From assembly GCF_004336745.1 (NCBI RefSeq), contig NZ_SJXD01000026.1, positions 186,001 to 250,000 on the forward strand: a DNA stretch of 64,000 bases, read 5' to 3'. Origin of the DNA: Roseococcus sp. SYP-B2431 (GTDB lineage Bacteria; Pseudomonadota; Alphaproteobacteria; Acetobacterales; Acetobacteraceae). Both the position numbers and the translations under genes were made by a program. This document shows positions 9,955 through 51,284 of this stretch, piece after piece. Numbering within the stretch: the stretch's first letter is position 1; each line of letters begins with the position of its first letter. The notes beneath the pieces are model-generated. The model searched no databases and was not told where the DNA came from. It was given only the letters and a program-made list of their open reading frames with translations.

Positions 9955-11132
9955 TGGCCGTCTCGCGCAACGACACCTCGCTCCTCGGCCGCTGGTGGTG
10001 GAGCGTGGACCGCTGGACGCTCGCCGCCCTGCTTTCGCTCGTGGCGATCGGCTACGTGATGATGCTCTCCGCCTCGCCGGCCGTCGCCGAGCGCATCGGC
10101 GCCTCCTCGCGCCACATGTTCCTCGCGCGCCAGGTCTTCTACTCGGCGATCGCGGTGGCGGTGATGGTCGCCTGCTCGCTCTGCACGCCGCGCTGGGTGC
10201 TGCGGCTGGCGCTGCTGGGCTCGCTCGGCGCGCTGGCGCTGACGGCGGCGACGCTGGTGGTCGGCGTCGAGATCAAGGGCGCGCGCCGCTGGCTGCCCAT
10301 CCCGGGGCTCTCGCTGCAGCCCTCGGAATTCCTCAAGCCCTGCCTCGCGGTGGCCTGCGGCTGGCTGATCGCCGAGGGCAAGCGCTCGCGCCGGTTTCCC
10401 GGCCTCACCATCTCGTTCTGCCTGATCGGCATCGTGGCCGTGCTGCTCAAGCAGCAGCCCGACATCGGCATGCTGGCCGTCATCGTGATGGTCTTCCTGG
10501 CCCAAGTCTTCGTCTCCGGGATCAACCTCTTCTGGGTGGCGATGGGCGGCGCGAGCGTCGTGGGCATGGGCATCCTCGCCTATATGCTGCACGGGCACGT
10601 GCGCAGCCGCGTGCAGCGCTTCCTCGACCCCGAGGCGGGCGACAACTTCCAGATCCGCATGTCGCTGGAGGCCTTCGGCAATGGCGGGCTGCTGGGCCGC
10701 GGCCCCGGCGAGGGCCGCGTGAAGGACGTGCTGCCCGACGCCCATGCCGACTTCGTCTTCCCGGTGGTGGGCGAGGAGTTCGGCCTGGTCGTCTGCCTCG
10801 TCATCCTCGCGATCTTCGCCTTCGTGGTGATCAGCGGCCTCGTGCGCCTGCGCCACGAGCGCGATCCTTACGTGACGCTCGCCGCCACGGGCCTGCTCAC
10901 GCAGTTCGGCCTGCAGGCCTTCATCAACATGGGCAGCTCGCTGCACCTCATCCCGACCAAGGGCATGACGCTTCCCTTCGTGAGCTACGGCGGCTCCTCG
11001 GTCATCGCGCTCGCCATCGGCATGGGCTTCCTGCTGGCGCTGACGCGCCGCCGCACGGCGCGCACCGAGGATACCCAGCCGTTTCTCCCCTCGGGCCTGC
11101 CGGCAGGCGGCCGCCAGCCGGTCATGACATGA
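9954..11132 (+). CDS. ftsW: Lipid II polymerase (SEDS glycosyltransferase) FtsW
   Basis: 392-residue SEDS-family integral membrane protein with about ten membrane segments, the septal glycan polymerase that partners FtsI. Recognisable family features are GARRW near residue 109, the QPSEFLKPC segment, the PDIGM loop and the C-terminal GMTLPFVSYGGSS signature. It sits directly upstream of murG, whose product makes its lipid II substrate. The start overlaps the murD stop by one base, and its stop overlaps murG as ATGA. Confidence 0.95.
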   Translation: MAVSRNDTSLLGRWWWSVDRWTLAALLSLVAIGYVMMLSASPAVAERIGASSRHMFLARQVFYSAIAVAVMVACSLCTPRWVLRLALLGSLGALALTAATLVVGVEIKGARRWLPIPGLSLQPSEFLKPCLAVACGWLIAEGKRSRRFPGLTISFCLIGIVAVLLKQQPDIGMLAVIVMVFLAQVFVSGINLFWVAMGGASVVGMGILAYMLHGHVRSRVQRFLDPEAGDNFQIRMSLEAFGNGGLLGRGPGEGRVKDVLPDAHADFVFPVVGEEFGLVVCLVILAIFAFVVISGLVRLRHERDPYVTLAATGLLTQFGLQAFINMGSSLHLIPTKGMTLPFVSYGGSSVIALAIGMGFLLALTRRRTARTEDTQPFLPSGLPAGGRQPVMT

Positions 11133-12274
11133 GAGGTCCCTCGGTGCGCCCCATCGCCATCGCGGCCGGCGGCACGGGCGGGCATCTCTTCCCGGCCGAG
11201 GCCCTGGCGGCCGAGCTCACCGCCCGCGGGGAGCGGATCGTGCTCTTCACCGATTCGCGCTCGGCCGCCTTCGACAGCCCGGCCTTCGCCAATGCCGAGC
11301 GCTTCGTCCTCAGCGGCGAGGGCATCGCCGGGCGCAGCCCGCTGCGCGCGGCCAGGGGCGCGATGAAGCTCGCGGCCGGCACGGTCACGGCGCGGCGGCT
11401 GCTACGGCGGCTGGACGCGGCGGCCGTGGTGGGCTTCGGCGGCTATCCCGCGATCCCGCCCGCCTTGGCCGCGCTCAGCCTCGGTGCCCGACGCCCGGCC
11501 CTGATCCTGCACGAGCAGAATGCCGTGCTCGGCCGCGCCAACCGCGCCCTGGCGCCGCGCGCCGACCTGCTGGCCCTGGCCTATGCCGACACCACGCGCG
11601 TGCCGAAGGCCGCCAAGGCGCAGGTGGTCGGCAATCCCGTCCGCCCGGCGCTCGCCGCCCTGGCCGGCGCCGGCTATCCCTCGCCCGAGGGCGCGCTGCG
11701 GCTGCTGGTGACCGGCGGCTCGCTCGGCGCCCGGGTCTTCGCCGACCTCGTGCCGCCCGCCATCGCCGCCCTGCCCGACGCGATCCGCGCCCGCCTCGTG
11801 GTCGCGCAGCAATGCCGCGTGGAGGACCTTGAGCGCGTCCGCGCCGCCTATGCCGGCACGGGCATCCCGGTCCAGCTCTCGCCCTTCTTCCCCGACATCG
11901 CGGGGCGGCTGGCGAATGCGCATCTGGTCATCGCCCGATCCGGCGCCTCGACGGTGGCCGAGCTGGCCTGCGCCGGCCGGCCCTCCCTCCTGCTGCCCCT
12001 GCCCTCGGCCATCGACAACCACCAGTTCGCCAATGCACGCGCCCTCGCGGAGGCCGGAGCGGCCCTGATTCTCCCCCAGGCCAGCACCACGCCGGTGCGA
12101 CTCGCTGAATTGCTGGCGGAATTCCTGGGCTCGCCGGAAAGGCTTGCCGAAGCGGCCCGGGCTGCGGCATCCCTGGCCCGCCCCCAGGCCGCGCGCGACC
12201 TGGCCGACCTCGTCCTCGCCCTCGCCAACCCCGCCGACCGGATTGGTGCCAACCTGCTTCAGGAACCTCGCTGA
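11129..12274 (+). CDS. murG: Lipid II synthase MurG (UDP-GlcNAc transferase)
   Basis: 381 residues. Peripheral membrane glycosyltransferase (GT28/GT-B fold) converting lipid I to lipid II. The N-terminal glycine-rich loop GGTGGH is at residues 14-19; LHEQNAVLGRANR and the C-terminal ARSGASTVAELACAGRPS donor-site block follow. The start at 11129 overlaps the ftsW stop by ATGA; the frame remains open far upstream only as a shadow of ftsW and murD. The stop TGA at 12272-12274 overlaps not murC itself but the first of the repeated murC-like starts. Confidence 0.96.
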   Translation: MRGPSVRPIAIAAGGTGGHLFPAEALAAELTARGERIVLFTDSRSAAFDSPAFANAERFVLSGEGIAGRSPLRAARGAMKLAAGTVTARRLLRRLDAAAVVGFGGYPAIPPALAALSLGARRPALILHEQNAVLGRANRALAPRADLLALAYADTTRVPKAAKAQVVGNPVRPALAALAGAGYPSPEGALRLLVTGGSLGARVFADLVPPAIAALPDAIRARLVVAQQCRVEDLERVRAAYAGTGIPVQLSPFFPDIAGRLANAHLVIARSGASTVAELACAGRPSLLLPLPSAIDNHQFANARALAEAGAALILPQASTTPVRLAELLAEFLGSPERLAEAARAAASLARPQAARDLADLVLALANPADRIGANLLQEPR

Positions 12275-12357
12275 TGCGCGCGCTGCCTCTCTCCATCGGG
12301 ACGATCCATTTCGTCGGCATCGCCTGCCGCAGAGCGGCGAAAGGAAACGGCCGCTGA
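12274..12357 (+). CDS. 27-codon leader ORF 1 (murC N-terminus plus a novel tail)
   Basis: Encodes 27 residues: the first 16 equal MurC residues 1-16 ([16 protein letters not shown]), then an 11-residue basic tail [11 protein letters not shown]. It starts within the murG stop (TGATG) and its own stop overlaps the start of the next copy as TGATG, so ribosomes leaving murG could reinitiate here. It has no glycine-rich nucleotide loop and cannot be an active ligase fragment. Whether it is translated as a functional peptide or only as a relay to murC cannot be told from sequence. Confidence 0.5.
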
Positions 12358-12440
12358 TGCGCGCTCTCCCTCTCTCCATCGGGACGATCCACTTCGTCGG
12401 CATCGCCTGCCGCGGAGCGGCGAAAGGAAACGGCCGCTGA
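12357..12440 (+). CDS. 27-codon leader ORF 2 (second murC-head copy)
   Basis: Second copy of the leader ORF, 26 of 27 residues identical to the first; the only amino-acid change is R to G in the tail ([11 protein letters not shown]). It is preceded by AAAGGA from the tail of copy 1. Its TGA at 12438-12440 overlaps the ATG of the genuine murC, so murC translation is probably coupled to it. The 83-bp unit length puts each copy in a different frame, so the copies cannot be read as one fused protein. Confidence 0.5.
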
Positions 12441-13894
12441 TGCGCGCTCTCCCTCTCTCCATCGGGACGATCCATTTCGTCGGCATCGGCGGCATCGGCA
12501 TGTCCGGGATCGCCGAGGTGCTCCACAACCTGGGCTATTCGGTCCAGGGCAGCGATCTCTCGGAAAGCGCCAACGTCGCCCGGCTGCGGGAGGCGGGAAT
12601 CCGGGTCACCGTCGGCCATGCGGCGGAAAACCTGGGCATGGCGCAGGTCGTGGTCGTCAGCACCGCGGTGAAGAAGGACAATCCCGAGGTCCAGGCCGCC
12701 CGTGCGCGCCTGCTCCCCGTCGTGCGCCGCGCCGAGATGCTGGCCGAGCTGATGCGCCTGAAATGGGGCATCGCCGTCGGCGGCACCCATGGCAAGACCA
12801 CCACCACCAGCCTCATCGCCTGCGTGCTGGAGCAGGCCAAGCTCGACCCCACCGTCATCAACGGCGGCATCATCAATGCCTATGGCACCAACACGCGCAT
12901 GGGCACGGGCGAGTGGATGGTCGTCGAGGCCGACGAGAGCGACGGCAGCTTCCTGCGCCTGCCCGCCACGGTCGCCGTCGTCACCAACATGGATCCGGAG
13001 CACCTCGACCACTGGGGCACCGAGGAGGCCATGAAGGAAGGCTACGCCCAGTTCGTCGGCAATATTCCCTTCTACGGCTTCGCCGTCCTCTGCGCCGATC
13101 ATCCGGGCGTGCAGGCCATGATTCCGAAGCTGGACCGCCGCCTCGTCACCTACGGCTTCTCGCCGCAGGCCGACGTGCGCGCCGAGAAGCTCCTCACCAA
13201 CCGCATGGGCGCGAGCTTCGAGGTGACGGTGCAGGACCGCACCACGGGGCGCGCCCGCACGCTGCAGCCTTTCCGCCTCCCCATGCTCGGCCAGCACAAT
13301 GTGCAGAACGCGCTGGCCGCCATCGCCGTCGGCGTCGAGATGGACGTGCCCGAGGATGTGATCCGCGCCGCGCTGGCCGGCTTCAAGGGCGTGAAGCGCC
13401 GCTTCACCCGGGTCGGCGAGACCGGGGGCGTCACCGTCATCGACGATTACGGCCACCACCCGGTGGAGATCGCGGCCGTGCTGAAGGCCGCCCGCCAGGC
13501 CGGCGCGCGCGACGTGATCGCGGTGGTGCAGCCGCATCGCTATTCGCGCCTCAGCCAGCTCTTCGCCGAGTTCTGCACCTGCATGAACGACGCCGGCACG
13601 GTGATCGTGGCCGATGTCTATGCCGCCGGCGAGGCGCCGATCGAGGGCATGGACAAGGACGGGCTGGTGGAGGGCCTGCGCGCGCGCGGCCATCGCAGCG
13701 TCGTGCCGCTGCCCGAGCCTTCCAGCCTGCCCGAGATGATCAACGCCATGGCCAAGCCCGGCGACTATGTGATCTGCCTCGGCGCCGGCAATATCACGAG
13801 CTGGGCGCATGCGCTGCCGGAGCAGCTGGCCGCGCTCCAGGCGCAGGGCGGCGGGCATGCCGGCGCGCGCGTGACGCCGCTGCGACGCGCATGA
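12440..13894 (+). CDS. murC: UDP-N-acetylmuramate:L-alanine ligase MurC
   Basis: 484 residues. First Mur ligase, adding L-Ala to UDP-MurNAc. The start at 12440 is the third of three repeated ATGs and the only one that continues into the Rossmann loop GIGGIGMSG (residues 15-23). The ATP P-loop GTHGKTTT is at 115-122, followed by [11 protein letters not shown] and the C-terminal [10 protein letters not shown] block. Shine-Dalgarno AAAGGA is supplied by the tail of the preceding repeat. The stop overlaps murB by ATGA. Full length with intact motifs, so the upstream duplications did not break it. Confidence 0.96.
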
Positions 13895-49743: not shown

Positions 49744-51075
49744 AGGCACCTCTCCAGCTTCGCGCTGCGGGCCGCGACGGCCTCGGCCGCCGTCATGCTC
49801 GTGCTGTCGCTGCTCGGCTCCTATTGGGGCTGGTGGCGCGCCGAGGCGGCGCTGCGCCAGCAGCTCGACCTCGCGATCGCCGCCGAGGCCGAGGGCTTCG
49901 TGCGCGAATTCGAGGAGGCGGGAATCCGCGGGCTGGCCCTGTCGGTGGAGGCCTATGCGCGGCGGCGCGGCCCCCTCTTCGTGGCGCTGCTCGCGCCCGA
50001 CGGCCGGGTCATCGCCGGCCGCCTGCCCCAGCCGCCGCCGCCGCTCCGCGGCTTCGCCAACCTGCCGGGCACGGGGGAGCGGCCGAGCCTGCGTGTCCTC
50101 GGCGGATCGCTGCCCGGCGGGGGCACGCTGCTGGTCGCGGCCGACCTCACCCCCGTGGACCAGGCGGCGACGGCCCTGGCCTGGACGCCGCCGATCGCGG
50201 GCGGCGCGGCGGCGCTGCTGGCGCTGCTGCTCGGCTTCGTCGCGGCGGGGCGGATGGAGCGCCGGCTGGCCTCCGCCTCGGACGCCGCGCGCGACGTGAT
50301 GGACGGAGACCTCATGCGCCGCCTGCCGCTCAGCGGCCGCGACGACGAGTTCGACCGGCTCACCGAGACCTTCAACGCGCTGCTCGGCCGCATCGAGACG
50401 CTCATGATCGCGCAGCGGCAGGTGACGGACGACATCGCGCACGACCTGCGCAGCCCCCTCTCCCGCCTGCGGCAGCTGCTGGAGGGCGCGCTGGCCGGCC
50501 CCCGCGACCCCGCCGCCGATGCCGAGGTGCTGGAGCGCGCCATGACGGAGCTGGACGCGGTGCTCGCCAGCTTTTCCGCCCTCCTGCGGATCGCCCGGGC
50601 CGAGAGCGGGGTGCTCCGGCAGGGCTTCCTGCCGGTGGACCTCTCCGCGCTCGTGGAGACCAGCGCGGAGATCTACGCGCCCGTGGCCGAGGAGGCGGGG
50701 AAGGCGCTGCGGACCGAGATCGCGCCCGGCATCGCGCTGCGGGGCGATGCGGCGCTGCTGCGGCAGGCCGTGGTGAACCTGATCGAGAACGCCGTCCATC
50801 ACGGCGGATCGCAGGTCGTTCTGCGGCTGCGCCCCGGGCCGGTGATCGAGGTGGAAGACGACGGGCCCGGCATCCCCGCCGGGGAGCGGGAGGCGGCGAT
50901 GCGCCGCTTCCACCGGCTGGACCGCAGCCGGTCGACGCCGGGCACCGGCCTCGGCCTCGCCCTGGTCGCGGCGGCGGCACGGGCGCATGACGGCGCGCTG
51001 ACGCTGGAGGATGGCGCCGGCGGGAAGGGCTTCCGGGCCAGGCTGACGCTGACACCTGACGCCCGGATGACCTGA
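49741..51075 (+). CDS. Two-component sensor histidine kinase
   Basis: 444 residues. Membrane segment 1 at about 8-30, a ~115-residue periplasmic sensor region, membrane segment 2 at about 150-170, HAMP (about 171-222), H-box with H234 (DDIAHDLRSPLSRLR), and the ATPase domain with N-box NLIENAVHH, EVEDDGPGIP and GTGLGLALV. EnvZ/CpxA-type architecture. Start 49741 is the first available codon in the frame and lies within the inverted repeat; its only Shine-Dalgarno candidate is abnormally close, so the true start is uncertain. The gene is bracketed by direct copies of the dispersed element. Confidence 0.92.
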   Translation: MRHLSSFALRAATASAAVMLVLSLLGSYWGWWRAEAALRQQLDLAIAAEAEGFVREFEEAGIRGLALSVEAYARRRGPLFVALLAPDGRVIAGRLPQPPPPLRGFANLPGTGERPSLRVLGGSLPGGGTLLVAADLTPVDQAATALAWTPPIAGGAAALLALLLGFVAAGRMERRLASASDAARDVMDGDLMRRLPLSGRDDEFDRLTETFNALLGRIETLMIAQRQVTDDIAHDLRSPLSRLRQLLEGALAGPRDPAADAEVLERAMTELDAVLASFSALLRIARAESGVLRQGFLPVDLSALVETSAEIYAPVAEEAGKALRTEIAPGIALRGDAALLRQAVVNLIENAVHHGGSQVVLRLRPGPVIEVEDDGPGIPAGEREAAMRRFHRLDRSRSTPGTGLGLALVAAAARAHDGALTLEDGAGGKGFRARLTLTPDARMT

Positions 51076-51082
51076 AAGGGTC

Positions 51083-51284
51083 TCGCGCCACAACCACGAA
51101 CGCGGCCGCACGGCGGCCGGCATCGCCCAACCGTTTCACGCCCGGCTGACCCGACAAGTCCCTGCGCCACAACCACGAATCCGGCCGCATGGCGGCTGGC
51201 GCCGCCCAGCCGAATTCACCGCCGGCACGACAGTCGCGCGGCGAAGCCAAGCGCGCGGAGCGCGCGCCCGGCGTTTGAGGGCGG
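51083..51284 (+). repeat. Dispersed element copy 2 with a duplicated A module
   Basis: GCGCCACAACCACGAA occurs identically at 51085-51100 and 51164-51179 (79-bp period), each time followed by hairpin A: GCGGCCGC-ACG-GCGGCCGG, then CCGGCCGC-ATG-GCGGCTGG with one G-U wobble. Module B follows the second copy at 51238-51284, with stem GCGCGC-GGA-GCGCGC. It lies between the kinase stop (51075) and the degP start; together with copy 1 it flanks the kinase gene in the same orientation. Confidence 0.85.

Follow-up and report, generated by a model that had tools for sequence, protein, structure and literature searches.

A tandem array of murC starts in Roseococcus and a second genus: a probable stop–start-coupled leader relay

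In Roseococcus sp. SYP-B2431 three copies of the murC start lie in tandem, and each of the two extra copies forms a short leader whose stop codon overlaps the start that follows. On the evidence of the sequences we favour, with a probability of about 0.6, the view that the array is a relay of stop–start-coupled leaders, built from the murC start, which keeps murC coupled to murG. Since the same unit is found in six genomes of two genera, we take the array to be genuine, and not a very recent event confined to one genome. The very recent origin that an earlier note on this DNA had offered as one explanation is thereby not supported; the assembly artefact for which that note had allowed is unlikely, since the unit recurs in five other assemblies. 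Nor is the array a matter of chance, given the repeat itself and the presence of the same unit in those five assemblies. The copy number in the window, three rather than two, could nevertheless be a misassembly, coming as it does from one assembly of 31 contigs.

The junction between murG and murC

How is the junction organized? The window, by which we mean the whole stretch of 64,000 nucleotides analysed, belongs to a genome of 4.71 Mb in 31 contigs, and its MurC has its nearest named relatives in Roseococcus and related Acetobacterales. The order of the operon is murD, ftsW-like, murG, murC, murB. The names of murC and murG are secure, both exceeding the curated cut-offs of TIGR01082 and TIGR01133, respectively; the ftsW-like gene, at 329.2 bits, lies slightly below its cut-off of 337.5. 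The features of the junction are:

11132..12274, + strand: murG (TIGR01133, 259.7 bits against a cut-off of 250.25)
12261..12264, + strand: native AGGA, Shine–Dalgarno-like, in the 3′ end of murG, 5′ of copy 1 (anti-SD duplex −4.3 kcal/mol)
12269..12488, + strand: tandem array of the murC start, period 83 (repeat searches)
12274..12357, + strand: leader ORF 1, 27 codons, MurC residues 1–16 plus an 11-residue tail (ORF reading)
12340..12345, + strand: AAAGGA in tail 1, upstream of leader 2 (anti-SD duplex −6.1 kcal/mol)
12357..12440, + strand: leader ORF 2, 27 codons, MurC residues 1–16 plus an 11-residue tail (sequence)
12423..12428, + strand: AAAGGA in tail 2, upstream of murC (anti-SD duplex −6.1 kcal/mol)
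12440..13894, + strand: murC (TIGR01082, 524.1 bits against a cut-off of 335.1)

A repeat search of the window places the three starts at 12274, 12357 and 12440, an exact spacing of 83 bp, and Tandem Repeats Finder reports 2.7 copies of period 83 at 12269–12488, with 96% matches. The triplication described in the earlier note, with spacings of 83 and 83, is thus recovered by two repeat searches. The TGA of murG shares a base with the ATG of copy 1 (TGATG at 12272–12276). The TGA of leader 1 overlaps the ATG of leader 2 and the TGA of leader 2 overlaps the ATG of murC, each as the TGATG that had been read before; the putative ribosome-binding site AAAGGA does lie within each tail, at 12340–12345 and 12423–12428. 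The period of 83 is not a multiple of three because 28 codons overlap the next start by one base. Units 1 and 2 mismatch at 4 positions. Among the three copies of the head, differences occur at three codons and are all synonymous, in agreement with the earlier reading. The frame of leader 2 stays open upstream to a TTG at 12144, and the mechanical ORF list gives this leader as the 3′ end of a 98-aa frame.

Elsewhere in the window, at 51059–51212, a 79-bp duplication (1.9 copies, 81% matches) spans the 3′ end of an ORF and the sequence after it. The ORF that ends there presumably encodes a histidine kinase.

A shared unit, scattered among relatives

How widely is the unit distributed? The earlier note had proposed reading the murG–murC junction across relatives, and repeated heads were indeed found outside the window's genome. 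In the window's genus, which is Roseococcus-like, the unit is present in five of the 19 readable genomes (21 in all, G002 and G013 being without a readable murC start). Of the nine genomes searched in the second genus, to which G322 belongs, eight have a murC match, and one of these carries the unit. Reading of the junction at 111 loci, a number that counts several genomes twice, gave repeated heads in nine loci from five genomes. Of 397 genomes sampled from the family, 4 showed the arrangement in a pattern search, as did 4 of the 21 genomes of the window's genus; the reversed control pattern gave no match in the 397 family genomes, among the matches listed. A further bearer, G001, was found by reading its contig, having escaped the pattern search because its spacing is 131 bp. 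Since the 397 genomes are sampled from a larger family and the pattern was limited in spacing, the counts of arrays are lower bounds. Through identity of the junction sequence, four of the bearers could be named as Roseococcus sp. SDR, R. suduntuyensis DSM 19979, the MAG H1_MAG_00044 and the Rubritepida MAG LF-bin-79.

Two leaders are present in the window and in G322, and one in each of the other four array genomes. R. suduntuyensis is among those with one leader, whereas its relative R. thiosulfatophilus has a single murC start. Variation in copy number thus stands as a difference between species, which show one, two or three starts, each species being represented by one genome. At no locus read does the number of starts exceed three.

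All eight leaders in the six genomes are open and end in TGATG into the next start. Seven are of 27 codons; the eighth, that of G001, has 43. The unit in G001 measures 131 bp, its tail being longer by 48 bp, a multiple of three, so that both the frame and the TGATG are kept. This expansion (locus L172) consists of two 24-bp in-frame repeats encoding the eight-residue repeat RGAALRSL; elsewhere in the 21 genomes of the genus the 24-bp sequence has just one match, with two mismatches, in G007. With the G001 expansion removed, tails differ between genomes at 4–10 of 35 positions. The native end of murG is retained 5′ of copy 1 in all six array genomes, and murG runs into copy 1 by TGATG in five of them and by TAGATG in the sixth.

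Was the unit remade in each genome from its own start? Codons 4–5 read CTC CCT in all eight starts that lie behind a tail (seven of seven in five genomes, plus G001); of the 27 starts that follow murG directly in both genera (21 single-copy starts and six first copies), none has this pair. It is because of this contrast that we regard the unit as shared rather than remade from each native start; the same distribution indicates that the last start of an array was not copied from copy 1, the native start of that genome. A single origin of the unit is probable. The loci compared comprise 99 distinct murC starts, and besides the six array genomes only the single-copy L109, from outside both genera, shows CTC CCT, so the codon pair is not unique to starts behind a tail. 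In the 397-genome sample a longer motif ending in CTC CCT has exact matches only in the four array genomes; a further four carry it with one mismatch.

Where might the tail have come from? Allowing up to three mismatches, it is found twice in the window's genome, both times inside the array, and we reject the idea of a dispersed repeat. A family-wide search gave full-length matches at murC only; the others were partial or weak, and 14 of their loci were inspected. A 96% match over 26 bases in G008 falls inside a region with a long open frame, which we take to be Mfd-like, and we regard that match as chance. The tail was also considered as a known murG end, and the murG C-termini of the loci compared offered no clear donor; C-termini in other genera, such as ALARRNLVGAA, are similar to it in style. 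No match to the tail was found among phages, plasmids and viral contigs.

Two other junctions carry repeats of their own. Between the murG stop and murC of L027 (genome G034), about 100 bp 5′ of murC, short units of about 15 bp (ATGACAAGGTCGGGC type) are repeated in tandem, each with an AAGG site and with an ATGA; this is a second repetition of murC start signals, unrelated to the array. In L046 (Crenalkalicoccus roseus) the murG C-terminus contains, just before the murC start, about 27 bp repeated in frame (SGASIEQRA).

A tree of murG and murC, built with the repeat left out, places the five array genomes known first as five separate tips, and a single clade of those five is rejected (AU p 4.8e-5). 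With G001 added, a minimum of six changes is needed; G001 and the window group with the single-copy L003 in a clade with weak support for its internal order (88/60). If the unit had been gained once, at the base of the two genera, 15 losses among 27 rows would be needed. The flanks of array genomes match those of single-copy sisters right up to the edge of the array. For example, L015, with an array, and L012, with a single copy, share 99% identity in the final 84 bp of murG and 97% in the 100 bp of murC that follow the head. The last head of L015 is 90–94% identical to the last heads of other array genomes and 92% to the head of L012. For L011 the contrast is sharper: its last head is 81% identical to that of its sister L010, as against 92% for L005, 94% for L015, 90% for L048 and 88% for the window. 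Divergence of the unit does not rise together with that of the flanks (Spearman −0.47, p 0.08, 15 pairs). The scattered tips and this failure of the unit to track its flanks make repeated loss, recombination or transfer likely. Horizontal transfer would demand very short tracts in each case. Single-copy heads were compared with mosaics of the first and last heads of an array genome. The mosaic with the first head at the 5′ side and the last head at the 3′ side fits better than its reverse in 7 of 11 pairs, equally well in 4 and worse in none; L015 paired with L012 and L011 paired with L008 give a strong fit. Such mosaics leave the direction unsettled, because recombination within the head yields them both when the unit is lost and when it is gained.

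The proposed relay and its rivals

How might the array work? The unit may be thought of as having two parts, a tail of 35 bp, which comprises the last 11 leader codons with the ribosome-binding site and the TGATG, and behind it codons 1–16 of murC. On finishing murG, a ribosome would reinitiate at the overlapping leader start; its translation of the leader would stop 27 codons on at TGATG, and reinitiation would repeat until murC is reached. On this view the unit arose once, probably when a murC start was joined to the end of a murG that was foreign or older, and was later lost, expanded and exchanged through recombination within the 48-bp murC head. It would persist because murC stays coupled and readable, and its effect would be at most a shift in the ratio of MurC to MurG. 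In favour of the relay we count the retention of frame and TGATG in eight of eight leaders, including the one with the tail longer by 48 bp. Against this account we count the unfolding cost of the tail-driven starts, the CTC CCT of L109, and the problem of 15 losses or short tracts. A bolder form of the proposal, which we regard as unlikely, would make the gene-start repeat a selectable translation relay: the 83-bp unit would spread between species through murC-head recombination, rebuilding an intact murC, and its copy number would set the number of MurG–MurC reinitiation steps and tune the ratio.

Do the tails provide special signals? Each retains a purine-rich site, with anti-SD duplex energies of −5.2 to −7.9 kcal/mol, as compared with −4.3 to −7.5 kcal/mol for the native first copies. 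In seven of seven cases (without G001) a tail-driven start is costlier to unfold than the first start in its genome. High GC suffices for this cost, since tails shuffled at constant base composition are at least as costly. Folds of three stretches of the window gave z-scores of 0.1 to 0.8. On the shuffles and z-scores, which reveal nothing beyond base composition, we reject a special coupling RNA structure. A pairing of the tail with CTC CCT, proposed by eye, was dropped; both G322 tails are altered in the proposed partner.

Could the array instead be a neutral passenger, a tolerated by-product of recombination in which ribosomes start murC de novo at the tail site and no role falls to the leaders? 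That the tail sites pair with the anti-SD about as well as native sites do, that the tail is without amino-acid constraint, and that the unit is missing from 14 of 19 readable genomes of the genus and from seven of eight in the second are all consistent with it. Yet eight of eight leaders keep their frame and TGATG despite 4–10 differences in 35 tail positions, and the one tail that lengthened did so by a multiple of three. Useless direct repeats this close are expected to disappear fast, which also counts against a mere passenger; we hold this explanation to be possible but doubtful. If, on the other hand, the number of relay steps set MurC output and changed within populations, the array would be a dose tuner, akin to a contingency locus. 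Different species do show one, two or three starts, and near-identical units within one genome (4 of 83 positions differ in the window) would allow slippage; the starts never exceed three in the loci read, however, and we think such a role quite improbable.

The earlier note had also suggested that the leaders might yield a peptide mimicking the MurC N-terminus. Among the seven 83-bp leaders, head codons 2–13 comprise 11 that vary synonymously only, one invariant and none variable in amino acid; codons 14–16 comprise one synonymous-only and two variable; and tail codons 17–27 comprise four invariant, none synonymous-only and seven variable. Fisher's test gives p 3.1e-5 for codons 2–13 against the tail and 3.1e-4 for codons 2–16, values that are indicative since the leaders are related and two genomes contribute two each. 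Synonymous and nonsynonymous differences between copies within a genome number 10/0 in L011, 7/0 in L015, 5/0 in G001, 4/1 in L005, 1 to 3/0 in the window and 4 to 6/0 to 1 in G322. The hint of constraint thus stands for the head, but the amino acids of the tail vary freely. The pattern in the head could reflect a constrained peptide, or equally heads exchanged with the real murC start by recombination, or heads recently joined. The mosaics suggest that the head may be corrected by such recombination, and the heads may have been real starts before the units were joined. Moreover, two leaders carry V14A or I16S, changes that are missing from 26 real murC starts, and neither leader peptide of the window matches Pfam up to E 1. 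A working peptide is highly improbable in our estimation.

Precedents and meaning

What known systems does the array resemble? By analogy the closest precedent is the mycobacterial MIRU, described as a short ORF-bearing repeat that lies at gene starts, is stop–start coupled and does little harm on insertion (PMC12548453). The murC unit, too, is a short repeat with an ORF coupled to the start of the following gene. MIRUs as described there are dispersed and coupled by an overlap of −4 nt (PMC12548453), whereas the murC unit is found at one locus, overlaps by 1 nt (TGATG) and contains the start of its own downstream gene. Termination–reinitiation at TGATG overlaps has been established by reporter assays in E. 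coli and Haloferax (PMC6728339). The gene pairs treated in that paper share with the murC array the TGATG overlap and an intragenic Shine–Dalgarno site, but they are full genes, while the murC array interposes one or two duplicated gene starts. All eight leaders carry an overlap of the kind, ATGA or TGATG, by which termination–reinitiation-coupled ORFs are recognized. A short upstream ORF, according to PMC12548453, may serve solely to bring ribosomes to the next start, and the role of the murC leader may likewise be ribosome delivery; the leader differs from the ORFs described there in that it copies the start of its own gene, in tandem.

What would the relay mean? There is a warning for annotation, that the true murC start be chosen and not the first look-alike. 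If the relay works, these genomes hold a natural series of one, two and three reinitiation steps before one essential gene, for which closely related species also supply zero-step controls. The efficiency of repeated termination–reinitiation would then be measurable in natural sequences, and the array would show how the start of a gene can be duplicated without breaking an essential operon.
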